Source of the DNA: Flavobacteriales bacterium
Lineage (GTDB): Bacteria > Bacteroidota > Bacteroidia > NS11-12g > UBA955
Reading direction: 5' to 3'
Assembly: GCA_947496375.1 (NCBI GenBank)
Contig: CANMCY010000020.1
Span: 1 to 40,715 of the forward strand
DNA length: 40,715 bases
Below are positions 3,799-23,007 of this stretch, in pieces; position 1 is the stretch's first letter; each line of letters begins with the position of its first letter. Position numbers and translations under genes: made by a program. The notes under the pieces are model-generated. The model was given only the letters and a program-made list of their open reading frames with translations. It had not been told where the DNA came from and made no database searches.

Positions 3799-4668
3799 TC
3801 ACCGGATTACCAAATTTCTAAGGCGTTTTTCAACGGATTCACTCACAGGCCATAGTGGTTGACGAACCACGTTTTCGCAAAGCCCCATTTCATTCAGCAT
3901 CACCTTAATACCGCCAGGACTGCCATCGGCAAATATGGCGAGAGCCCCTTCCAGAACGGTGTTGTGAAGTGTTCTGGCTTCATCCCAGTTTTTATTAAGG
4001 GTAGCTTTTACCATCCCGCTAAATTGTTTTGGGTATGCATGGTTAATAACCGAAATAACCCCCGATGCGCCACAGGCCAGCATGGGGAAGGTGAGGGCGT
4101 CATCCCCGCTGATAACGAGGAAATGGTCGGGTTTGCGCGTCATTAGTTGCATTACCTGTTCCATATTGCCACTGGCTTCTTTAGTAGCGACCATGTTCGG
4201 CAATTCGGCAATCCTGCATTGGGTTTCCCAGGTCATATTGCTGCCGGTGCGGCCGGGTACATTATAAATAATTACCGGCAAAGGCGCTATTGTAGAAATG
4301 GCTTTGTAATGGTGATAAATGCCTTCCTGATTGGGTTTGTTGTAGTAGGGAGATACACTTAAAATGACGCTGAATCCTTGAAGATCCGCATGTTGCATTT
4401 TATCGCATACCGCAGCCGTATTGTTGCCACCTATACCCAGTACCAGGGGCAAACGGCCATTGTTGGCTTCCCGAATGGTATCGATAACGGTTTGTTTTTC
4501 AGACTCGGATAATGTGGCGCTTTCCCCGGTGGTACCCAGCACAACAAAATAATCGGTGCCATGTGCAATCTGATGCTCTACAATGGTTGCAAGGGCTTCA
4601 GTATCTACGCTATAATCTTTTTTGAACGGAGTTATCAGCGCGGTTCCGGTTCCTATAATTTCTTTCAT
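3799..4668 (-). CDS. dapA: 4-hydroxy-tetrahydrodipicolinate synthase DapA
   Basis: DapA condenses pyruvate with aspartate semialdehyde, the first committed step to diaminopimelate and lysine. The 289-residue TIM barrel shows all key residues at near-E. coli numbering: GTTGE at 45-49 (Thr46, Thr47), Tyr135 in IIYNVPGRT, Arg140 for the carboxylate, and the Schiff-base Lys163 in ATKEASGN. The [20 protein letters not shown] segment forms the end of the barrel. It lies 10 nt downstream of the small conserved protein at 4679-5218 and 25 nt upstream of ruvB, so these three genes are probably one transcript. Nothing unusual in the sequence. Confidence 0.97.
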
Positions 4669-7957: not shown

Positions 7958-9109
7958 TCACATGGGGTGTGGAGGATGAATCCGGAAATACACAGTTTTT
8001 AGCCAGTAAGCATACATGGGATCCAGCAGGAACAATCCTTTTCCCATGTCATCAATGATTTCTTTATCCATCAAGGCCTTTCTGATTCGGATTACATTGG
8101 CCGAAGTGCCCAAACGATATTGGTCTATTGTCTTTTTTGAAGATAATTGTTGTTGGTTTTCAATCACTGCTTTTAAGAAGTTAACGTGTGTGGTGGTCAG
8201 ATCATCGGTTATCATCTGAAACAACAGGCTCAGCTGTTGGCTAATAGATTCGTGTGCCGACAATATGTTTTGGAGGTTGCAGGTGCCTTTGGTGCGCAAC
8301 CAGGTTTGCTGGGCGAGTTGCTGGGTGTAGTAGGGGTGACATTCGCATAGTTCGGCAATCTTACCCGCCAGTTCAGGAGATATTTTCTTTTGCGTATCGG
8401 CAAATTGCTTGACGATGAACTTTTTCCAGTCCTGTATTTTGATCTTTTCCAGAAACATCAGGTCTCCAAATTTGTAAAACGGCATGGAGGGTTTGGTGAA
8501 TACATCCATCATCATGTGTCGTTTGCTACCATACAGGCAATAGGTAACGTGCTTGTGCCGCTGCCAGGCAGCACGGAGTTTTTTTTGAAAATCCACCGCA
8601 TGCTCAAAATTGCCAATGTTCTGGAATTCATCAATGCAGATGATGATTTTGATGTTTTTTCGGGCGGCAATTTTTTCAGCCAAGTTTAAAATGTCGGTGG
8701 GGTCTTTCCGTATTTCTTCCCAGTCAAGACTTAACGATATTTCCTGATTTGCCTCATTTGCCAGGTTTATTTTAGGGATGAATTTGCCGATGTATTCCTT
8801 TGTGTTTTCTACAAATTCAGATATTTTGCCCGATGTTGCAGATATCACAGACTGGGATAGCTGTTCGTAAAATTCCTCCTGACTTCGGGTGTTGAACATG
8901 TCGAATGAGCATGTGCGGATTTTTCGTGATTCAATTTTTTCGGTGGCCTTCAGCACCAGCGAAGATTTGCCCCAGCGCCGGGGAGATATGAGGATGGTGT
9001 TGATGCCTGACTGAAAATTCTGCAGCAAGTAGTTGAGTTCTTCTGTGCGGTTGGTGAACGCTGCTTCTGTTGCCAGTTTCCCAAATACAAATGGTGCTCT
9101 TTTTTCCAT
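7958..9109 (-). CDS. STAND/AAA-type ATPase (archaeal-ATPase-like, PF01637 type)
   Basis: A 383-residue soluble ATPase. The N terminus PFVFGKLATEAAFTNRTEEL is the usual lead-in of this family. The P-loop is SPRRWGKSS (42-50), which lacks the first canonical glycine but is the normal variant in this group. Walker B is IIICIDEFQNI with Asp160-Glu161, and a sensor-like CLYGSKRHMM follows. The C-terminal 100 residues (from about 285) look like a winged-helix domain, ending near GLFLLDPMYAYWLK. Such proteins are numerous paralogues in Bacteroidota and archaea, and their role is generally unknown; no effector domain is fused here. It lies downstream of dnaE2 in the same direction, but 74 nt away with its own repeat-rich promoter, so co-function is not implied. 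Confidence 0.82.
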   Translation of the reverse strand: MEKRAPFVFGKLATEAAFTNRTEELNYLLQNFQSGINTILISPRRWGKSSLVLKATEKIESRKIRTCSFDMFNTRSQEEFYEQLSQSVISATSGKISEFVENTKEYIGKFIPKINLANEANQEISLSLDWEEIRKDPTDILNLAEKIAARKNIKIIICIDEFQNIGNFEHAVDFQKKLRAAWQRHKHVTYCLYGSKRHMMMDVFTKPSMPFYKFGDLMFLEKIKIQDWKKFIVKQFADTQKKISPELAGKIAELCECHPYYTQQLAQQTWLRTKGTCNLQNILSAHESISQQLSLLFQMITDDLTTTHVNFLKAVIENQQQLSSKKTIDQYRLGTSANVIRIRKALMDKEIIDDMGKGLFLLDPMYAYWLKTVYFRIHPPHPM

Positions 9110-9113
9110 ATCA

Positions 9114-9144
9114 CAAATTTACTTACAAAAAAGTAACTTACAAA
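9114..9144 (-). promoter_or_regulatory. Consensus promoter built from tandem repeats, 4 nt before ATPase start
   Basis: On the minus strand TTTG (9144-9141), a 19-nt spacer and TAAATTTG (9121-9114) match both promoter elements exactly. The -33 element lies inside the second 15-bp tandem repeat. The box ends 4 nt before ATG 9109, so the transcript may be leaderless. Confidence 0.7.
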
Positions 9145-9180
9145 AATATAACTTACAAAAATGTAACTTATAAAAAAGTT
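9121..9180. repeat. Four tandem 15-bp repeats
   Basis: Copies at 9121-9135, 9136-9150, 9151-9165 and 9166-9180 share the pattern ACTTAYAAAAADKTA (last copy ends GTT). All are exactly 15 bp. Three of the four contain CAAAA, which is TTTTG on the minus strand, so each offers a potential -33 element for the ATPase promoter. They occupy most of the 74-nt gap between dnaE2 and the ATPase gene. Confidence 0.9.
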
Positions 9181-9183
9181 ATA

Positions 9184-12100
9184 TTATTGTTCGTACCGCG
9201 GATCGGGGATATAGGGGATTTTTTCCATCTGCAATACAGCGATACTGTACACCCCGAAATCGTTGGTTACTTCTCCCGCAAGTCGGTATATGCCCCGTCC
9301 TTTGAAAGGATATTGACGAAGTGTATTGGGGAAATGAAGGGTGTCGAAAAAATGCCCGGATACATCCAGCCAGGTGCCAAAATTCATTTCCTGTCCTTTG
9401 ATGGTGCGGGTGGGTTTGACGGTGACCAGGTATCCCATCATTTGTATGGTTTTTCCTTCCAATGCCTTCAAGTGCCGGGCCAGGAAGGGGTTTTTGGGGG
9501 CAAGGCCGGGAGGGAGCAATTCAAATGGGCTGCACAGGGGGAAGCCAAGCAGTTCTATTTGCTCAAACGCTTCCTCAGCGGGGTGTTCCATTAAATCAGG
9601 CAATACAAAGGGCTGAGGCGTTTCCCGGAAGAGTTTTTCAGTAGCCACCTTCTTTTCTTTGCGATTGACGAGCCAGTGGGCCTCCCACATCAGTTCTTTG
9701 CGGTTTTTGCCTGTAAAGCGCAAAGCGCCTGTACGGATGAGAATTTTGAGCTGCTCCAGCCCGGGTTCCACGCGCTCCTTAAAATCAAACAAACCGTGGT
9801 AAGGCCCGTTGGTATTTCGTTCGGCCACAATCCGCTCAGCCAGTTTCTGTTCCAGTGATGCCACATGCACAAATCCCAGGTGCATCGTTTTCTCCTGTAT
9901 GTGGGTGAGGTATTGGCTGTGATTTATGCATGGTGGCTGAATATCGGCCCCGCACATGCGGGCTCCGTGCAGGTAAAATTCTGTGCGGTAAAATCCGCCG
10001 AAGTTGTTGATGACCCCCACATAAAACTCCAGCGGGTAGTACGCTTTCAAATACAGACTCTGGTAGCTTTCTACCGCATAGCTGGCGCTGTGTCCTTTGG
10101 CAAAACTGTAGCCGGCAAAACTCTCAATTTGGTGCCATACCTCAGCCGACAGTTTTTCGGGGTGCCCTTTTTCCTTGCAAAGCTCGAAGAAGCGGTCTTT
10201 TACCTTTTGAAATTCTTCGCGGCTGCGAAATTTTCCGCTCATGCCCCGGCGAAGCACATCACTCTCTGCCAGCCCCAGTCCGGCAAAATGATGGGCCACT
10301 TTGATCACATCTTCCTGATATACCATAATACCATAGGTGTCGGGCATGATGGTCTGCAAAACAGGGTGGGCCTCTTTCCGTTTTTCGGGATCGATGTGCC
10401 GTTCGATGAAGCTACGCATCATGCCGCTGCGGGCCACACCTGGACGTATGACGCTGCTGGCCGCCACCAGCGTTAGGTAATCGCTGCAATTGAGTTTGCG
10501 CAACAGCTGCCGCATGGCCGGACTTTCCACATAAAAACAGCCCATGGTATGTCCGCTGCTGACAATACGCTTGATTTTTTCATCGGACTTGAAATCCTGA
10601 ATGCGGTGTATGTCGATGTCTTCGCCTCGATTTTCTTTCACCAGTCGTACCGCATCTTTGATATGCCCCAGTCCGCGCTGGCTGAGAATGTCGAATTTGG
10701 CCAGGCCCAGGTCTTCGGCTTCCAGCATGCTCCACTGTACCGTGGGGAAACCCTTTGGGGGCATGTCTAGGGCGGAATAGTAGTACATGGGTTTTTCGCT
10801 GATGAGAATGCCTCCGGCATGAATGCTGCGGTAGTTGGGCAGTTCGTGCAGCCGCAATGCATGTTGCATGATTTTTCCGGCCAGGGTATCTCTGTGCTGC
10901 GTTCTGACAGCTTTAGAAATGGTGGCCCTTTCACCAATACCGGACGCGGTATAGACGGCTTTGCCATCGCGGATTTTATGGCCGGCCTGTTCCTCCAGCA
11001 TAGAAGGAGAGAAGTAGGTGGGTTTTTCCATCAGGTGGTCTATTTCTTCCTTGGGCAGCCCGAAAACCTTGCCCAGCTCGCGTACTACGGCATTAGACTG
11101 AAAAGTGCTGTATGTGGCAAGCAGGGCAGTGTGTTCACGCCCGTGTTTGCGGAAGATGTATTCAGTAACCTTGTCGCGATCCTGCCAGCTGAAATCCAGA
11201 TCGAAATCAGGGGGTGAGGTGCGGTATGGATTGATGAATCGTTCAAAGTAGAGATCCAGGTCAATGGGATCTACATCGGTAATGCGCAGGCAATAGGCCA
11301 CCATGCTGTTGGCGCCGCTGCCACGCCCCACATAGAAAAATCCCTGTTCTCGGGCAAAACGACAAATATCCCAGCTGATGAGAAAGTAAGCCGTGAAACC
11401 CAGTTCGTAAATGAGCTTCATCTCGCTTTCCAGGCGCTGCTTGGTGGCATAGGTGTACTTGGGATAGCGGTAGCGCAGTCCTTCCATGGCTAAATCGGTC
11501 ATGAGCCTGAAGTCCTCGTCAGCATTGCCGGTAAAGGTTTTTTTGTTCTGGTTGCCGCCAAAGGAGGGGCGAAAAGTGCACCGCTGCATGAGCCGGAGGG
11601 TGTTTTCAACCAGAAAAGGGGCATCTGCGTAGCACTTCAGAAATTCATGGGTGTTGATGTAGCGGTCTTTCTCATGGCCCGATTCGCCGGGAGGCAGCTT
11701 ACTCAGCAGGCAGTTGTTGGCCATACATCGCAGCAGTCTGTGGCTTTCAAAGTCTTCCGCATGGCGAAAGGTACAGGGTTGCATGGCCAGTAATTTTTGA
11801 GTATGCTTTCGCCAGGGTGAAAGCCGCAGTTTCCCCAACGAGTCAGATTGCACGCCAATCCACTGGTTTTCGCTGAGTTTTTCAGGAAATCCTTTTTCCT
11901 GTGTGCGCTCAAATGGAAGAATAAAGTGCACACAATCCAGTGTTGGCGGCCATGAGGGCAGTTTTTGCTGTGCAAGACGGTATTGGGAAAGAAAGCGGTT
12001 CATTTCGGCAAAACCGGTTTCATTTTCGGCAATACCCACATACAGGCAGCGCCCTCCGGTTTCACCTTCCCTAAAGTCAATGCCCGCGCAGGGCTGTATC

Positions 12101-12285
12101 TGCGGATGTTGCTTTGCTTCGCGAAAAAAATCGGGGATGCCGCTCACGTTGTTGATGTCGGTAAGGCATACGGGAATGGGATTTGCAGCGCTTTCTACAG
12201 ACTGCGTTGCTATCTGCAACAGCAGGTCTTTGGGCGAGAGTATTCCGTAGCGTAAACTGAAGTATGAGTGGCATTGTAAAAACAT
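9184..12285 (-). CDS. dnaE2: DNA polymerase III alpha subunit, DnaE2/ImuC-like (error-prone type)
   Basis: A C-family DNA polymerase of 1033 residues, shorter than a replicative DnaE (about 1160-1200). An N-terminal PHP domain (CHSYFSLRYG, LTDINNVSGIPDFF) has lost the HxH and other metal ligands, so it probably does not proofread. The catalytic motif PDFDLDF lies near residues 357-363, and the third Asp is in AKFDIL near 531. GRGSGANS, SVIRPG and GYSFAKGHSASYA are family motifs. An OB domain (MMGYLVTVKPTRTIKG onward) closes the protein. In most bacteria this type carries out translesion synthesis with ImuA and ImuB; neither is in the window. The start is placed at ATG 12285 (MFLQCHSYF), the family N terminus; an in-frame start 51 nt upstream would add a hydrophobic stretch unlike relatives. 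Confidence 0.88.
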   Translation of the reverse strand: MFLQCHSYFSLRYGILSPKDLLLQIATQSVESAANPIPVCLTDINNVSGIPDFFREAKQHPQIQPCAGIDFREGETGGRCLYVGIAENETGFAEMNRFLSQYRLAQQKLPSWPPTLDCVHFILPFERTQEKGFPEKLSENQWIGVQSDSLGKLRLSPWRKHTQKLLAMQPCTFRHAEDFESHRLLRCMANNCLLSKLPPGESGHEKDRYINTHEFLKCYADAPFLVENTLRLMQRCTFRPSFGGNQNKKTFTGNADEDFRLMTDLAMEGLRYRYPKYTYATKQRLESEMKLIYELGFTAYFLISWDICRFAREQGFFYVGRGSGANSMVAYCLRITDVDPIDLDLYFERFINPYRTSPPDFDLDFSWQDRDKVTEYIFRKHGREHTALLATYSTFQSNAVVRELGKVFGLPKEEIDHLMEKPTYFSPSMLEEQAGHKIRDGKAVYTASGIGERATISKAVRTQHRDTLAGKIMQHALRLHELPNYRSIHAGGILISEKPMYYYSALDMPPKGFPTVQWSMLEAEDLGLAKFDILSQRGLGHIKDAVRLVKENRGEDIDIHRIQDFKSDEKIKRIVSSGHTMGCFYVESPAMRQLLRKLNCSDYLTLVAASSVIRPGVARSGMMRSFIERHIDPEKRKEAHPVLQTIMPDTYGIMVYQEDVIKVAHHFAGLGLAESDVLRRGMSGKFRSREEFQKVKDRFFELCKEKGHPEKLSAEVWHQIESFAGYSFAKGHSASYAVESYQSLYLKAYYPLEFYVGVINNFGGFYRTEFYLHGARMCGADIQPPCINHSQYLTHIQEKTMHLGFVHVASLEQKLAERIVAERNTNGPYHGLFDFKERVEPGLEQLKILIRTGALRFTGKNRKELMWEAHWLVNRKEKKVATEKLFRETPQPFVLPDLMEHPAEEAFEQIELLGFPLCSPFELLPPGLAPKNPFLARHLKALEGKTIQMMGYLVTVKPTRTIKGQEMNFGTWLDVSGHFFDTLHFPNTLRQYPFKGRGIYRLAGEVTNDFGVYSIAVLQMEKIPYIPDPRYEQ

Positions 12286-12324
12286 TTGATAAAAATAATG
12301 ACAATAAAAAGTCATTGAATATAG

Positions 12325-12332
12325 CAAAAATA
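12325..12332 (-). promoter_or_regulatory. Possible -7 box for dnaE2
   Basis: Minus-strand TATTTTTG, 39 nt upstream of the ATG, with no clear -33 partner in this AT-rich region. I see no palindrome that would clearly be a LexA site. Confidence 0.3.
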
Positions 12333-12409
12333 TCAATCAGTAAATCGGCATCATGGTTTTTATTGTGATAAAATAGCTTACTGTACAATCTAATGCTGTT
12401 ATATGGTGT

Positions 12410-12444
12410 TTTGAACTGCGAAAACATGAAATGCGGTATATTTG
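12410..12444 (+). promoter_or_regulatory. Bacteroidota promoter (TTTG, 23 nt, TATATTTG) for the MORN protein
   Basis: TTTG at 12410-12413 and TATATTTG at 12437-12444 lie 23 nt apart, at the long end of the accepted range. The ATG at 12463 is 18 nt after the box. This also argues against the in-frame TTG at 12442, which lies inside the box. Confidence 0.6.
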
Positions 12445-12462
12445 AAGATTCAATTTGAAAAC

Positions 12463-15117
12463 ATGAAAAGAATCGTAAATCCCTTCATTTTATTAACAGC
12501 AATGTTGTTTGTTTTGGTAACTTCTGTCCATGCCACCGGTTTTAGTTCATTTGTTGCAAATGAGAAGAAATCATTAACCGGAATTCAGAGCGGTGGGCAA
12601 AATGAATTGTTGTTTTACCGACTTGAGAAAAACGGTTCTTATACCCTCATTTCCGACACGGCCGGTAAGTATGCCGCAGAAACGGATCTGAAGATTTCAA
12701 AAGAAGAAAATGTAGAAATTTACTACCGCTTCAGGGGGTCTGATTACAGAAAAGCTACCTACACCGGCGAAATGGCCAAACTGAAACTGGATGTAGGAAA
12801 GGTGCAGTTGCCCCATGGTTTGGGCAATCTTACCTCCGGAATGTTTGTGTATAAAGGACAATGGAAAACAGGCAAAATGGAAGGCACTGGGGAATGGGAG
12901 TTTATCGGTAATGGTGAAAAATATAAAGGAGCGTTTGTGAATAATCTCTTTCAGGGTGAAGGTAATTTTACCTATAGGGATGGTCATTTATACATCGGAT
13001 CATGGGCGAATGGAAAACGCAACGGGAAAGGTGAAATTTATTTCCCCTACCAAAAAGTAGAATTCCCCATCTGTGAATTTGGCGCTGTTAAGGCCGTAAA
13101 TCTCAGTGTGGAATGGAAAAACGATACTGCCAATGGAATTGGTCAGCTAACATATCTGGTAAAGTCCAATAAAGCAGGTGTTCCTGATGAAGAGGTTGTT
13201 CTTACCAACAAAAGGGAAGAGCCCATATATTGGAAAGGGTTTAAAGCAACAGGGACCATTAGCGCTGTGGTTTTCACCAACGGAAATCAATTTAAGGGTG
13301 AAGTAAAAAATGGAAGCGTTTCAGACGGAGAACTGTTTTACAAGGTTGCCGGGGCAGAAGAGCTTGGCTATAAAAAAGGGGTTTGGCAAAATGGATTGTT
13401 TACCGGAAAAGCCACGCTGCCAATAACGCCAAAAGGTTTTTTTAAAGGGTATGTAAAAAATGACGTACGGCAGGGTGAAGGAACAATGAAATTTGCCGAT
13501 GGTGCCATTTATAGTGGTAATTGGGAAAACGATAATTTCTCAGGCCAAGGCAAATATCAGTTTACGGATGGCACCTATTACGAGGGAATGTGGAAGGAAG
13601 GAAAGCAAAATGGATATGGTGTGCGTTATAACAGTTTCACTAAAGCTTACTGGAAATGCAATTGGAAAGACAATGTTCCCGTCGATTCCGGAACCGTTAC
13701 TTCAAATAGTAATAATGTAATAACCCAATATACCGGCGGAGTTGGCGGAGCCAAAACAGATAAAGGTACCAAGTACTTTTTCGAAGGATTTGGCCGCTTT
13801 AAACAAATTTTCCCAACAGAAGATACCAGCATGCACAAAGATTCTTCCTACGTTGGCTATTTTCATGAAGGATTGCCCCATGGCAAAGGGGAAATGAAAA
13901 GGCGCTTTGGTGGTGATGGCGAAACGGATATGACGGAATGGACCTATACCGGAGAATGGGTTAATGGGAACAAACAAGGCCAGGGTAAACAAGTAACTGA
14001 GTTCATGATTGGTTTTGAAACCTATGAGGGTCTATGGGCCAATGGCATGAAGCAAGGCAAAGGGAAACTTGTTTCCAGTGGTGAAGGTTATGAATCAACC
14101 TACACCGGTACCTGGAATGATGATAAAATGGTGGGTTATGGTGAGGCCATATCAGAATTTATCAATCCCGAGAATGGCTCAGTGGAGAGATCAACATACA
14201 AAGGACAGTTTGCCAACGATTCAAGAAATGGTCAAGGAACGGAGGTATCGTATGAAGGAACCTACACCGGAAACTGGAAGGATGGTTTAAGAAATGGTTT
14301 GGGCAAAATGGTTTATAAGGACGGAAGAATATACGAGGGACAATGGGCAGGCGGGCCAAATGGCGATGGAACATTGATTCTGGCGAATAAATCAGTGCAG
14401 AAGGGGAAGTTTATCAATGGAGAATTTCAAAAGCCTTTTGTTGCCAGGCAGGCAGTGATAGGAAGCCAGGTTTGGATGGCGGATAACCTAACCGTTACCA
14501 AGTTTAGAAACGGCGACGATATTCCTGAAGTTACATCAAAAGATGAATGGTACAACTATGCAGAACAAGGTAAACCTGCATTTTGTTATGTAAACAATGA
14601 TCCCGCTAACAAAGGGAAGTATGGTGTTTTGTATAATTACTATGCTGTGGCCGATAAAAGGGGATTAGCCCCTGAGGGTTGGCGTATTCCAAGCCATGTA
14701 GATTTCCAGAATTTACAGGCACAGTTAGAGGTGAATATCAAAAACCTGGAACAGAAAATTCAAACCAAAAGGGCCGAAGGAATTGATGTATACGATTTGA
14801 ACAACCAGCTGGAAAAAATGAAAAAAGAATGTTCTATTGAGCTGGCTGGAAGCAAACTAAAAGCACGCAGCGGATGGGCGAATTGCCAAGGTGCGGATGT
14901 TTATGGATTCGCAGCAAGACCCACAGCCACGCGCGATGATTTGGGGCGATTTGACTTGCCTAATGAATACACGGAGGCAGCTCAATACTGGACCAATAGC
15001 TATATGACAAATGATAATACAATGGGAGTGTCATATGAAATTCATTGGACAGGGCGCTTTGAACAGGTTTCTTTTACCCGAAAAATTGAAGGTCTGCCAA
15101 TTCGTTGCATCAAGTAA
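12463..15117 (+). CDS. Secreted MORN-repeat protein with C-terminal FISUMP domain
   Basis: An 884-residue exported protein. The signal peptide MKRIVNPFILLTAMLFVLV... is likely cut after VHA (about residue 24). From about residue 125 to 655 there are roughly fourteen MORN motifs of the form Y.G.W..G...G.G, for example YKGQWKTGKMEGTGEW and YEGLWANGMKQGKGKL. The last 220 residues form a FISUMP domain (Fibrobacter succinogenes major paralogous family): IGSQVWMADNLT, GVLYNYYAV, APEGWRIPSHVDF, and a closing GLPIRCIK. A charged predicted coiled coil (about residues 749-791) is inserted between WRIPS and the AGSKLKA strand. No T9SS tail or lipobox is seen. Both domain types are common on surface or periplasmic proteins, but a biochemical role is not established; binding to envelope or carbohydrate is speculation. 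Confidence 0.85.
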   Translation: MKRIVNPFILLTAMLFVLVTSVHATGFSSFVANEKKSLTGIQSGGQNELLFYRLEKNGSYTLISDTAGKYAAETDLKISKEENVEIYYRFRGSDYRKATYTGEMAKLKLDVGKVQLPHGLGNLTSGMFVYKGQWKTGKMEGTGEWEFIGNGEKYKGAFVNNLFQGEGNFTYRDGHLYIGSWANGKRNGKGEIYFPYQKVEFPICEFGAVKAVNLSVEWKNDTANGIGQLTYLVKSNKAGVPDEEVVLTNKREEPIYWKGFKATGTISAVVFTNGNQFKGEVKNGSVSDGELFYKVAGAEELGYKKGVWQNGLFTGKATLPITPKGFFKGYVKNDVRQGEGTMKFADGAIYSGNWENDNFSGQGKYQFTDGTYYEGMWKEGKQNGYGVRYNSFTKAYWKCNWKDNVPVDSGTVTSNSNNVITQYTGGVGGAKTDKGTKYFFEGFGRFKQIFPTEDTSMHKDSSYVGYFHEGLPHGKGEMKRRFGGDGETDMTEWTYTGEWVNGNKQGQGKQVTEFMIGFETYEGLWANGMKQGKGKLVSSGEGYESTYTGTWNDDKMVGYGEAISEFINPENGSVERSTYKGQFANDSRNGQGTEVSYEGTYTGNWKDGLRNGLGKMVYKDGRIYEGQWAGGPNGDGTLILANKSVQKGKFINGEFQKPFVARQAVIGSQVWMADNLTVTKFRNGDDIPEVTSKDEWYNYAEQGKPAFCYVNNDPANKGKYGVLYNYYAVADKRGLAPEGWRIPSHVDFQNLQAQLEVNIKNLEQKIQTKRAEGIDVYDLNNQLEKMKKECSIELAGSKLKARSGWANCQGADVYGFAARPTATRDDLGRFDLPNEYTEAAQYWTNSYMTNDNTMGVSYEIHWTGRFEQVSFTRKIEGLPIRCIK

Positions 15118-15804: not shown

Positions 15805-15857
15805 ACAACTTAATGTGGTTGTTTATTTGGGTCAATGGATTAATATTGAAGTGTAAA

Positions 15858-17039
15858 ATGAAATTAATCGGTTTAATCATACTGCTGTCCACGGCTTGCA
15901 GTAACACTTTGCTGTTTGCCCAAAATTATGCGGTAGGTCATACCACACTCAATCTTTCAGACGCAGGAAGAAGTAATCGCAGTATTCCGGTGGAAGTCTA
16001 TTACCCTGCATCCACGGCAGGTGACAATGTGCCTGTTGCCGGCGGACGAAAATATCCCTGTATCGCTTTTGGGCATGGATTTTTGATGACCTGGGATGCC
16101 TACAAAAACGTATGGAATGCATTGGTTCCGCAGGGTTTCATCATCGCATTCCCCAAAACAGAAGGCACCGCAGCGCCATCCCATCTGGAATTTGGTAAGG
16201 ACCTTTCTTTTGTGCTTTCAGCCATGGATTTACAGGGAAAAAATGCGTCTTCACTTTTCTATAACAAAGTAGATACCATGAATTGTGTTATGGGCCACAG
16301 TATGGGGGGAGGAGCCGCTTTTCTTGGGGCTTCACAAACATCAAAAATCAAGTGTATTGCTACCCTGGCAGCTGCCGAAACCAGCCCGAAAGCAACTGCT
16401 GCCGCTGCAGGGCTCACATTCCCCTCCCTGCTCATTGCCGGCAGTAATGATTGTGTTACGCCGCCTTCCGGTCACCAGATTCCCATGTTTGATTCGCTGA
16501 AAAGTTCCTGTAAAACCTATGTCGCAATTGCAGGGGGCAGCCACTGTCAGATGTCAGAGGATAATCTCCTGTGCAATTTGGGAGAATCTACCTGTTTTCC
16601 TAAACCCACCATCAGCCGTGCCACCCAGCATCAGGCAATTTCACGGTTTTTGATACCCTGGCTCAGATTTCATCTTTTAAACGATTGTCGTTCCGGACAA
16701 ACCTTTGATTCCCTCGCAGTAAAGGATGCAGCGGTATCAGTCAGAAAAAACTGTGTTTTGTGCCCCACCAATGGGCTTTCAGAAGTAGCCCGCTTTTCGG
16801 TAACCCTATTTCCCGTTCCGGCAACCACCGAATTATACCTTACCTTGCATCCTGAAATTCAGCAGGTAAGCTGCATACTTTACAATTCCGCGGGGCAGAA
16901 AAAGGGAGCATGGTCACAACTTAAGGTGTTTAATGCTACGGTAAAACTGCACCTGCAAACGGGTTTGAGTAAGGGTTTGTATTTCTTGAACGTGGAAAGT
17001 GACGGTGAGCAAAAAAACGTACCTGTATTGATAGAATAA
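15858..17039 (+). CDS. Secreted cutinase/PETase-like alpha/beta hydrolase with T9SS sorting domain
   Basis: A 393-residue exported hydrolase. The signal peptide starts MKLIGLIILL and probably ends at LLFA before Gln22. The alpha/beta hydrolase domain has the oxyanion strand CIAFGHGF (GHG 72-74), nucleophile elbow GHSMGGG with Ser148, Asp198 in GSNDCVTPP, and His229 in GGSHC. The GHSMGGG, GxNDxxxP and GGSH set matches the polyesterase-lipase-cutinase family that includes bacterial cutinases and PETases. The aromatic residue after the nucleophile strand (TPW in cutinases) is missing (LAAAETS). From about residue 312 comes a type A T9SS tail (FSVTLFPVPATTELYL ... GLSKGLYFLNV), so the enzyme is likely secreted or surface-bound. 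A polyester or lipid ester substrate is an inference. An in-frame upstream ATG at 15813 lacks a signal peptide, so ATG 15858 is preferred. Confidence 0.82.
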   Translation: MKLIGLIILLSTACSNTLLFAQNYAVGHTTLNLSDAGRSNRSIPVEVYYPASTAGDNVPVAGGRKYPCIAFGHGFLMTWDAYKNVWNALVPQGFIIAFPKTEGTAAPSHLEFGKDLSFVLSAMDLQGKNASSLFYNKVDTMNCVMGHSMGGGAAFLGASQTSKIKCIATLAAAETSPKATAAAAGLTFPSLLIAGSNDCVTPPSGHQIPMFDSLKSSCKTYVAIAGGSHCQMSEDNLLCNLGESTCFPKPTISRATQHQAISRFLIPWLRFHLLNDCRSGQTFDSLAVKDAAVSVRKNCVLCPTNGLSEVARFSVTLFPVPATTELYLTLHPEIQQVSCILYNSAGQKKGAWSQLKVFNATVKLHLQTGLSKGLYFLNVESDGEQKNVPVLIE

Positions 17040-20201: not shown

Positions 20202-22016
20202 ATGACTGGCCTATTGTGCTGCATATCGCTATTGTTCTCCGCTTCGGATACCCTTCCGGCAGCGGATACCGCTTTCATAGAAGGAAAGCGCTTGATGATG
20301 GCATCTCAGGGTAAGAATGTCATCGTTTTTCCTATAGGCAGCCAATGGCTTAATCAGGATCTGGCAGCAGCCGGTATTTGTATACGTCAATATGGACCTT
20401 CGGGCATCGGAAGCATCAGTCGCCGTGGTGCCGATCCGGCTCAGATTCAGGTATTGTGGAATGGGTTGGTGCTGAACAATCCCATGCTGGGCATGGCTGA
20501 TCTAAGTTTGCTGCAAAATGATGCATCTACCGAAATTAAGTTATCTGAAGGAGGCAGTGGTTCATTCTATGGCAGCGGAAGCGTTGGAGGAACATTGTCG
20601 CTTCAGCATAAATCACCCGATGAATCAGGTGGAAACATCAACACCGAAATCCTAAGCGGTAGTTTTGGCAGGCGTGAACTGGCCACCCACTGGAACTGGA
20701 ATAGGCCGGGACTTTACTTCACCTGGAATAACAATTTCTATGCTGCAGAGAATAATTTTACCTATAAAATTCCGGGAACTGAGTCCATGAAAATGCAATT
20801 TGCCGACCGCAATCAATTTAGAAGCAATTTTTCAGCGGGGTATAATTTTAACCGCTGGAATGCTGAAGTTCATTCTGAATGGCAAAAAGGAGACAGGGGC
20901 CTGGGAACAGCCGCCGGCGGAGGTTCCTCACTGGGCTGGCAGGATGATGAAAATCTGCGGACGGTGTTATCCCTGAATTATACGTCAGATCGTGTCAAAT
21001 TGGTTCAGAGACTGGGGTTAATCCGTGATAAAATAATTTTTCAATTACCCGGCCTTTCAAATCCCGACAGCAGTCGTTCTATGAGCAAACAATACCAGCA
21101 GGAATGGCACTTTAACATTGTCGGGCTTCAATGGATTACCGGGTTTGATTTACTGCATGTTTCAGCAGTTACAAAAAACTATACCCAATCAATTTCAAAC
21201 TTCTATCCTGCGCAGTTTCTGGCGGTTTCACATCATCGCAAAAAAACAAACATATCTGCCAGTGCCCGATGGGAATGGAATGAGAAGATTCCGGTGGGTT
21301 CGTTTTCTGCCGAGAGAAGTTTAAATAATCATTGGTGGCTGAAAACCAATGTAAGCAACAGCTTTCGCCGTCCAACACTGAACGATTTATACTGGAGTAA
21401 TGGTGGTAATACACAGATTAAAGCAGAAAAAGGGGGGAGTATTGAATCCGGCTTGGCGGGCAAGTGGCAACACAATGCTGCCATGGTTTCACTCAATACC
21501 ACTTTCTGGATGCGATACCTGAACAATCCCATTGTATGGCTTCCGGGAAACAATATGTGGAGCGTTTCAAACCTTGAACGTGGAGATTACCAGGGTGTGC
21601 AGCTGTCGGTATCGATTGCCCATAAAATGGGAGATCTGCTTGTTTATTGGGCTGCCGGTGGCGAATGGTGTAAGGCACAGATTACCAGGGAAAATAAAGT
21701 ATATAACGCCTTGTTCGTGCCCGGCATAACAGGGTCAGGTCATTTGAAAATTCAGCACAAAAATGCATTTATAAATATTCATTGCCAGGGGCAAAGCGAT
21801 CGGTTCATTTCCACCGATAATCTTTCTTCCCTGCCTGCCTACGCTTTGTTCTCCTGCCATGGAGGAAAGGAATTTAGCCGTTCCACACACCATTTGTTAC
21901 TCTCAGCCGGTGCGGATAATGTTTTCAATCAAAACTATCAGGTAATGCCAGGAAGGCCCATGCCTTTGCGCACACTCTGGATAAAACTAGCATTGAAATT
22001 ACACTACAAAAAATAA
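20202..22016 (+). CDS. btuB: BtuB-like TonB-dependent cobalamin receptor
   Basis: A 604-residue TonB-dependent outer-membrane receptor, close to BtuB length. The plug domain spans about residues 38-137 (IGSISRRGADPAQIQVLWNGLVLNNP, SEGGSGSFYGSGSVGGTLSLQ) and is followed by a 22-strand-type barrel with many aromatic strand ends. Placement directly behind a cobalamin riboswitch, and before a DUF4465 protein and a BtuG-like lipoprotein, identifies the substrate as cobalamin or a related corrinoid. The N terminus MTGLLCCISLLFS is hydrophobic but lacks the usual Lys/Arg; no ATG lies further upstream in frame before the TGA at 20148-20150. No clear TonB box is seen. It ends 4 nt before the next gene. 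Confidence 0.9.
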   Translation: MTGLLCCISLLFSASDTLPAADTAFIEGKRLMMASQGKNVIVFPIGSQWLNQDLAAAGICIRQYGPSGIGSISRRGADPAQIQVLWNGLVLNNPMLGMADLSLLQNDASTEIKLSEGGSGSFYGSGSVGGTLSLQHKSPDESGGNINTEILSGSFGRRELATHWNWNRPGLYFTWNNNFYAAENNFTYKIPGTESMKMQFADRNQFRSNFSAGYNFNRWNAEVHSEWQKGDRGLGTAAGGGSSLGWQDDENLRTVLSLNYTSDRVKLVQRLGLIRDKIIFQLPGLSNPDSSRSMSKQYQQEWHFNIVGLQWITGFDLLHVSAVTKNYTQSISNFYPAQFLAVSHHRKKTNISASARWEWNEKIPVGSFSAERSLNNHWWLKTNVSNSFRRPTLNDLYWSNGGNTQIKAEKGGSIESGLAGKWQHNAAMVSLNTTFWMRYLNNPIVWLPGNNMWSVSNLERGDYQGVQLSVSIAHKMGDLLVYWAAGGEWCKAQITRENKVYNALFVPGITGSGHLKIQHKNAFINIHCQGQSDRFISTDNLSSLPAYALFSCHGGKEFSRSTHHLLLSAGADNVFNQNYQVMPGRPMPLRTLWIKLALKLHYKK

Positions 22017-22020
22017 TACC

Positions 22021-23007
22021 ATGAGATTTATTAAAAAATTCACCATCCTTTCTCTGCTTGCCTGCAGTGCCACACTGAATGCTCAGATTACTGAAGGTTT
22101 CGAAAATGCGACCCAAGACACGGTAATGCTGCTAAATGGCAGCGATGGCCTGAGAATGCACTATTTCAACAATGGAGAAATGTCATTTCCCGTTAGCTAT
22201 GACACCGCTGTCAAATACTGGGCAAGCGGCTGGGCTTTGTCAAAAATAATTAACAATAAAGTTGAGCCACCCAGTTTCACCAATCATTTGTATAGCGCAG
22301 CTCCCGGTCTAGGTGTGGAGAATGGCAACAAGGGAAAGGCCTTTATGGTGGGACAAAACGGGAGTTTCTTTTACCTGCAAAGAAGGAGTGCCAATGATTT
22401 TCCTCTCAAAGGGTTCTATGTAAGTAACTCCACGTATGCCTACAACAGCATGAAGTTTGGCGATATGTTTGCCAAGAAATTTGGCGGTACAACCGGAAAA
22501 GATCAGGATTCGTTCGTACTCATCATTAGAAGCTACAAACAAAGTAGGGCTGTAGACAGTCAGCGGGTAATATTGGCAGATTACAGATTTACTGATTCTA
22601 ACCAGGATTTCATTCTTAAAGAATGGAAGTTTGTAAACCTAAAAGATGCTTACACAGATAGCGTTTCCTTCGAACTGGTAAGTTCAGATGTGGGTCAATG
22701 GGGCATGAATACGCCTGCATTTTTTGTATTGGATGGGGTTGAATTCTTTGGGTTGAATTCAGTGGAAGAGTTGAATGCAACAGTTAATATTTATCCTGTT
22801 CCGGCCTCAGATATATTGCATATAGCAGCCAATGCTGAAATGGAATCAATTTCCCTGCTTGATTTTACCGGCCAAATCAAAGGTGTTTACAAAACGGGCA
22901 GCTACAAGGGAGAAATTTCCACTAAAGACCTCGCCCATGGTTATTACATCATAAAGATAAAAACACGCACAGGTATTATCAGCAAAACGATTCAGATTAT
23001 CAAATAA
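22021..23007 (+). CDS. DUF4465 (BtuH-like) protein with T9SS sorting domain
   Basis: A 328-residue secreted protein. The signal peptide MRFIKKFTILSLLACSATLNA is followed by QITEGFENATQDTV, the beginning of the DUF4465 domain (about residues 22-250: GEMSFPVSYDT, YWASGWALSKI, GFYVSNSTYAYNSMKFGD, VLADYR, VFFVLDGVEFF-like end). Residues about 255-328 form a type A T9SS tail (NIYPVPASDILHI ... LAHGYYIIKIKT). DUF4465-type proteins are found in Bacteroidota B12 loci, and I recall that the BtuH surface B12-binding proteins belong to this group; that link is from memory. Here it sits between btuB and btuG, so a surface corrinoid-binding role is likely. Unusually, it would be delivered by T9SS rather than as a lipoprotein. 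Confidence 0.8.
   Translation: MRFIKKFTILSLLACSATLNAQITEGFENATQDTVMLLNGSDGLRMHYFNNGEMSFPVSYDTAVKYWASGWALSKIINNKVEPPSFTNHLYSAAPGLGVENGNKGKAFMVGQNGSFFYLQRRSANDFPLKGFYVSNSTYAYNSMKFGDMFAKKFGGTTGKDQDSFVLIIRSYKQSRAVDSQRVILADYRFTDSNQDFILKEWKFVNLKDAYTDSVSFELVSSDVGQWGMNTPAFFVLDGVEFFGLNSVEELNATVNIYPVPASDILHIAANAEMESISLLDFTGQIKGVYKTGSYKGEISTKDLAHGYYIIKIKTRTGIISKTIQIIK

Follow-up and report, generated by a model that had tools for sequence, protein, structure and literature searches.

PET hydrolases have been sorted into structural types I-III, and the residue roles and disulfides of the type II enzyme IsPETase are described in PMC10546322, PMC13396203, and PMC8767016. The described enzymes probably closest to the one reported below come from a study in which nine predicted Bacteroidota PETases were synthesized (PMC8767016). 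In that study, PET27-PET30 carry PorC tails, and PET27 (Aequorivita) and PET30 (Kaistella) are predicted to be secreted, share the PETase fold with Phe at the position of IsPETase Y87, have no IsPETase-style disulfide near the catalytic loop, and contain one C-terminal disulfide; where IsPETase has the PET-clamping W185, PET27 carries Trp and PET30 Tyr. PET30 lost its activity when mutated toward Tyr/Trp, and its authors concluded that single clamp residues do not decide activity. In the same study, PET53, with Phe-Met-Trp, is listed as inactive, and PET38 of Fluviicola taffensis (WP_083800582; 447 aa), which has Phe-Met-Ala, a D-H-S triad, and a T9SS tail, is described as poorly expressed and without activity (PMC8767016). 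Type III enzymes (PmC, HaloPETase1, and R75estA) degrade PET without the Tyr/Trp clamp; their motif is GHSQG, their subsite I contains Thr and Tyr, and their bridges are unlike those of type II (PMC13396203). In stabilized variants of IsPETase, position 121 is Asp or Glu and position 186 is His (PMC10546322). Among titles and abstract openings, with subscription journals mostly outside the literature covered, no dedicated description of the family reported here was found.

The gene studied here lies in a stretch of Flavobacteriales DNA of 40,715 nucleotides (referred to as the window) and encodes a protein of 393 aa (Table 1). A longer in-frame start is present at 15813, from which the signal peptide looked worse by eye. 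Residue Q22, which directly follows the putative cleavage site, is nearly invariant in an alignment of 71 family sequences. A sequence-only reading had described the product as an exported hydrolase carrying three motifs in the order and spacing of cutinases and PETases, and this description held: GHSMGGG (residues 146-152), GSNDCVTPP (195-203), and GGSHC (226-230) follow one another along the protein, with distances of 50 from S148 to D198 and of 31 from D198 to H229. Likewise, the six cysteines it had singled out (143, 199, 218, 230, 239, and 246) were all found at these positions. Measured in 600-base windows, the GC content of the gene was 0.44-0.49, inside the surrounding range of 0.38-0.50, so that base composition neither shows nor rules out transfer.

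Table 1. Coordinates in the window of the esterase gene and of its observed and predicted parts
Feature	Position	Strand	Basis
Whole coding sequence, 393 aa	15858..17039	+	PF12740, 75.6 bits
Putative N-terminal signal peptide, residues 1-21, cleavage ...LLFA/Q	15858..15920	+	By eye; model helix 2-18
Predicted alpha/beta-hydrolase catalytic domain, residues 22-303	15921..16766	+	Model and structural alignment (model range about 20-307)
F75, position of IsPETase Y87	16080..16082	+	phmmer alignment; F in 95/99 rows, Y in 4/99
H109, position of IsPETase S121	16182..16184	+	99/99 rows
S148, predicted nucleophile within GHSMGGG	16299..16301	+	99/99 rows; aligned to S160
A173, position of PET-clamping W185	16374..16376	+	A in 97/99 rows
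D198, predicted catalytic acid	16449..16451	+	99/99 rows; aligned to D206
C199, putative partner C246	16452..16454; C246 16593-16595	+	Co-occurrence in 97 rows
C218, putative partner C299	16509..16511; C299 16752-16754	+	Co-occurrence in 94 rows
H229, predicted catalytic base	16542..16544	+	99/99 rows; aligned to H237
C230, putative partner C239	16545..16547; C239 16572-16574	+	Each in 99/99 rows
Extra segment after the catalytic His, residues 231-253, with C239 and C246	16548..16616	+	Profile, spacing, DSSP helix 237-244
Putative T9SS type A C-terminal sorting domain, residues 317-387	16806..17018	+	TIGR04183; seven model strands between 315 and 392

Profile searches placed the protein with the PETases, as had been proposed. 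The Pfam PETase profile PF12740 matched at 75.6 bits (cut-off 28, E 5.3e-21), followed by Hydrolase_4 at 36.4 bits (cut-off 27) and by Chlorophyllase (PF07224) at 28.0 bits, which passes the cut-off of 26 and is about 48 bits lower than PF12740 on the same protein. PF03403 (PAF-AH) stayed at 19.3 bits, below its cut-off of 20, and the DLH profile gave no match to the protein at E 1. Among the NCBIfam models, the T9SS tail was the only one above cut-off; the equivalog for the BHET hydrolase BdeA (NF051441) scored 51.7 bits, far under its cut-off of 520. At E 0.01, PF12740, Chlorophyllase, and Hydrolase_4 each matched all 71 family members, with best E values of 3.4e-24 for PF12740, the lowest among the profiles, and 4.1e-13 for Chlorophyllase, while PF03403 and DLH each matched 46 of the 71 (best E 3.5e-8 and 3.6e-7, respectively). 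PF12740 was above cut-off in 4 of 14 control genomes, and a match to it thus does not mean polyester activity.

Searches of the PDB, both with the single sequence (best E 3e-18) and with a profile (best E 2.7e-28), were led by PET hydrolases and cutinases. Of the best 60 of 189 single-sequence matches, 57 carry the name PET hydrolase, PETase, cutinase, or PBS(A) depolymerase; the other three (7dzt, 7dzu, and 7dzv) are called "DLH domain-containing protein." An AlphaFold2 model computed from the 71 family sequences reached a mean pLDDT of 94 and a pTM of 0.79. In Foldseek, IsPETase variants matched it best, with an E value down to 1.5e-18 and a TM score of 0.81 normalized by target length; the best 50 matches, at 21-24% identity, consisted of PET hydrolase entries and one cutinase, AdCut. 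With VIA-align, Z was 31.5 to GlacPETase (8x6v) and about 30 to IsPETase; the best 50 matches ranged from Z 29.9 to 31.5 over 239-248 aligned residues, and all were PET hydrolases or cutinases by description. CtPL, which was among the structural matches, had been named as an enzyme of this kind in the profile search of the PDB. Given the predicted model and the sequence and structure searches, the polyesterase-lipase-cutinase fold is settled; function is not settled by them.

In a phmmer alignment to the IsPETase variant 7osb, 52 of the 173 aligned residues were identical. S148, M149, D198, and H229 fell on S160, M161, D206, and H237, F75 on Y87, and A173 on W185; G195 occupied the position of C203, and C230 lay opposite C239. 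Hence, only one half of the IsPETase-type active-site disulfide C203-C239 is matched, the other half being Gly. We counted residues in 99 distinct rows from two family alignments trimmed to 330 residues and unweighted for relatedness, which also served for the tree counts given below. S148, M149, D198, H229, H147, and H109 were invariant in these rows. Position 173 was Ala in all rows except one with Leu and one with Phe. The absence of the clamp aromatic, already pointed out from the sequence, is therefore a trait of the family and not a quirk of a single gene. Overall, the protein resembles IsPETase in fold, triad, the Met next to the nucleophile, and the Cys (C230) opposite C239, and departs from it in the changes Y87->F, W185->A, and C203->G, in a longer segment after the catalytic His, and in its T9SS tail. 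With the type III enzymes it shares the lack of a Tyr/Trp clamp and, probably, bridges unlike those of type II, but it has GHSMG, F75, and A173 where those enzymes have GHSQG with Thr and Tyr. Neither the aromatic at W185 that marks type II nor the type III combination was found.

H109 aligned with S121 of IsPETase in both the single-sequence and the profile alignments to PDB entries. E174 aligned with D186 in the 7osb and 6ky5 alignments; in the 8d1d alignment, a gap opens directly after the Trp. Position 174 was Glu in 59, Asn in 31, Val in 7, Gln in 1, and Asp in 1 of the 99 rows. By alignment, H109/E174 is the same type of pair as in the stabilized IsPETase variants, with the orientation reversed. 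H109 is kept where position 174 is Asn or Val, so that coupling between the two residues is not demonstrated.

The segment that follows the catalytic His is enlarged and contains two of the conserved cysteines. The PF12740 match spans 220 protein residues on 192 profile positions, and the distance from H229 to W268 is 39, compared with about 20 for the corresponding His-to-Trp distance in IsPETase. Since C230 and C239 are both invariant, their pairing is beyond the reach of co-variation. C199 and C246 were both present in 84 and both absent from 10 of 97 rows, with C199 alone in 3 and C246 alone in none. A similar pattern was seen for C218 and C299: of 94 rows, 80 had both and 13 had neither, while a single row had C218 without C299 and none had the reverse. 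The control pair C199/C218 was not coupled (73 of 99 rows with both, 14 and 12 with one or the other alone, and none lacking both), and C143/C302 was less tightly linked: of 90 rows, 14 had both, 63 had neither, 3 had just C143, and 10 had just C302. On supported tree branches, there were 1 (C199/C246) and 3 (C218/C299) independent row pairs, all in the same direction, which is too few for a significance test of cysteine co-loss. These patterns suggest bridges C230-C239, C199-C246, and C218-C299, the first two tied to the extra segment. C277 and C299 lie in the region of the IsPETase C273-C289 bridge, in which C289 pairs with C273; C299, however, co-occurs with C218. Further conserved cysteines of the family probably form bridges other than those of the known PETase types. 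Like PET27 and PET30, the protein appears to have no IsPETase-style disulfide near the catalytic loop, but it has more conserved cysteines than the single C-terminal disulfide given for those two enzymes in PMC8767016.

The sequence-only reading had also assigned a T9SS tail to the protein. This tail is a marginal call, with one of two libraries passed: TIGR04183 (NCBIfam) scored 24.7 bits against a cut-off of 23, and PF18962 (Pfam) scored 22.0 bits, short of its cut-off of 27. Among the relatives, 78 C termini remained once those truncated at a contig end or shorter than 250 aa were set aside; 77 of the 78 were counted, and TIGR04183 matched 67 of these 77 at E 0.01, leaving 10 without a match. 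T9SS substrates pass the inner membrane by means of a signal peptide and the outer membrane by means of the type IX system, and their C-terminal domain is removed. The same genome encodes SprA (PF14349 SprA_N, 551 bits, above cut-off) and has 78 TIGR04183 matches at E 0.001, of which 76, including the 393-aa protein, are above cut-off. An export route for the protein therefore probably exists. The parallel drawn earlier to PET-active enzymes of Bacteroidota stands insofar as PET27-PET30 are also described as PorC tailed in PMC8767016.

Among 31 sampled genomes from the genus of a metagenome-assembled genome titled Fluviicola, 9 carry the esterase family. Complete frames of these members are about 433-464 aa long from ATG; by eye, they have Ala at the clamp position, and most have a T9SS-like end. 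From their length, their Ala, and these ends, rather than from its own sequence, PET38 is probably a member of the family. As described in PMC8767016, it has Phe-Met-Ala, the triad, and a long C-terminal part with a T9SS tail in common with the 393-aa protein. The Fluviicola-group members that we read lack the C199/C246 pair, unlike the 393-aa protein.

Of 295 genomes sampled from the class, 99 carry the family, counting the source genome itself; this breadth suggests that its function is old and general. Scanning named genomes gave at least 403 relatives, of which 80 were retained for analysis of their loci; these loci contained 83 family open reading frames, 70 of which were aligned together with the 393-aa protein. 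By title, 73 of the 80 retained relatives are Bacteroidota and 7 are not; the latter include Rhizobium, Gemmatimonadetes, two Kapaibacterium, Fermentibacteria, and Sphingomonadales, and some of them may be misbinned. A number of members are far longer, the largest at 1,218 aa. Frames of ~800-1,200 aa in L018, L020, L023, L024, L066, L070, L071, L072, L083, and L085 consist of the esterase followed by long further regions. In L018 and L070, a second, tandem family copy upstream of the long paralogue looks split; in G126, the split copy gives a partial match interrupted by a single TAA, and in L070, it appears as two shorter open reading frames.

Within its own taxonomic family, the gene was found in 3 of 70 genomes, all of them in its genus (3 of 7), and in each of the three, it is located between a methyltransferase gene and an HlyD-type gene. 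In two genus genomes without the esterase, this site is nearly gapless: the methyltransferase match ends at 1986 and HlyD starts at 1993 in G039 (L133), and the respective positions in G035 (L132) are 4651 and 4667. These empty sites indicate that the esterase gene comes or goes as a single gene, through either gain or loss. Two further genomes of the genus without it, G037, in which the contig stops at HlyD, and G034, in which the HlyD match is shortened, may simply miss the gene in their assemblies. The nearest relative in the tree outside the genus, L004, belongs to another taxonomic family. In L132, the methyltransferase match (4018-4651) consists of three overlapping pieces, a pattern suggestive of either gene decay or frame errors.

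No functional partner was apparent among the 25 largest neighbor clusters of the 80 loci and the window; apart from the family itself, recurring clusters were present in at most 9 loci each. The neighborhood was discarded as a clue to the substrate: by eye, several neighbors resemble housekeeping genes (such as those for a potassium transporter, uracil-DNA glycosylase, and lipoyl synthase) and are apparently common to related genomes. A phage origin was likewise set aside, with one weak PHROG match to an esterase/lipase at 29.3 bits. Elsewhere in the window, positions 7958-12336 include a DNA polymerase III alpha-like protein of 1,050 aa, which we take to be possibly of the error-prone type, near an AAA ATPase. 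A MORN-repeat protein with a C-terminal Fib_succ_major domain is encoded upstream of the methyltransferase gene (12442-15117); within the genus, it had matches in L123 (44% identical) and L133 (89%, partial) and none in stretches L124 and L132. Positions 20202-23007 encode a TonB-receptor plug protein and, after it, a DUF4465 protein that bears a T9SS tail too; both are matched in L123 and L124 of the same genus.

We consider it likely that the 393-aa protein is an extracellular serine esterase of the polyesterase-lipase-cutinase type that acts on natural esters, with PET activity absent or weak. In a family without the PET-gripping Trp, an enzyme cleaving natural esters is likelier than a plastic degrader. 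For secretion, disulfide pairing, catalysis, and substrate, we infer the following course. The signal peptide would take the protein through the inner membrane, and its cysteines would be oxidized in the periplasm; the type IX system would then carry it across the outer membrane, where the C-terminal domain would be removed, leaving the enzyme on the cell surface or secreted. S148, activated by H229 and D198, would attack the ester carbonyl, the oxyanion would be held by the backbone of F75 and M149, and water would then free the acid. In the groove, F75 and A173 would replace the Tyr/Trp clamp, and the wall on the His side would be formed by the longer segment, probably joined to the loop of the catalytic Asp by C199-C246 and looped back on itself by C230-C239. 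The substrates would likely be natural esters, among them short- or medium-chain acyl esters, lipids, and plant or algal polyesters, such as cutin-like material.

PET activity itself, to which the sequence-only reading drew a parallel while calling the substrate uncertain, was not supported. A true polyester hydrolase with useful activity on PET, comparable to PET27 and PET30, would agree with the fold, the triad, the tail, and Phe at the Tyr87 position, which PET27 and Cut190 also have (PMC8767016); the activity of the clampless type III enzymes (PMC13396203) and the mutants of PET30 (PMC8767016) likewise caution against reading too much into one residue. Against it stand A173 in place of the aromatics that both PET27 and PET30 retain, the Gly at C203, the breadth of PF12740 matches, the occurrence of the family across the class, and the inactivity, in PMC8767016, of PET53 and of PET38, the latter poorly expressed, so that we regard such activity as distinctly unlikely. 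An extracellular lipase or phospholipase acting on monomeric lipids, for example, one like PAF-acetylhydrolase, overlaps with the natural-ester esterase favored above and differs from it in a narrower substrate. The GHSMGGG motif and the PF03403 matches among family members are in line with it, and cutinase-fold enzymes commonly take triglycerides; since the PF03403 score of the protein itself is under cut-off and far under PF12740, and since the Asp-His distance of 31 matches the PETases, we judge this narrower reading to be somewhat unlikely.

Kinship with chlorophyllases or dienelactone hydrolases, named beforehand as the finding that would overturn a PETase-like assignment, is extremely improbable. 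Chlorophyllase does pass its cut-off and matches every family member, DLH matches many of them, and three PDB chains bear the DLH name, but PF12740 leads in score and in best family E value, the DLH profile is silent on the protein itself, and each list of the best 50 structural matches is made up of PET hydrolases or cutinases by description. More speculatively, the natural-ester esterases of this family might constitute a further structural type beside types I-III: widespread secreted natural polyesterases of Bacteroidota with Ala in place of the Trp clamp, a groove shaped by the enlarged, disulfide-bound segment after the His, and a natural His/Glu pair, H109/E174, at the positions of S121 and D186. 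We regard this proposal as doubtful.

In a search of Antarctic genomes for such enzymes, Bacteroidota contributed 42 of 152 predicted PET hydrolases (PMC13422221), and anyone who looks for plastic degraders with profiles will probably go on finding this large family in Bacteroidota. The 393-aa protein is not likely to be a good PETase, and the family to which it belongs is broad. Recognizing that its members combine the fold and the triad with a missing clamp would stop them from being counted as PETases on sight. It would also direct attention to a natural substrate whose turnover could have given rise to PET activity. Should polyesterases exist among the members, their conserved pairs of cysteines and the His/Glu pair that occurs naturally in the family would be stabilizing features of interest.
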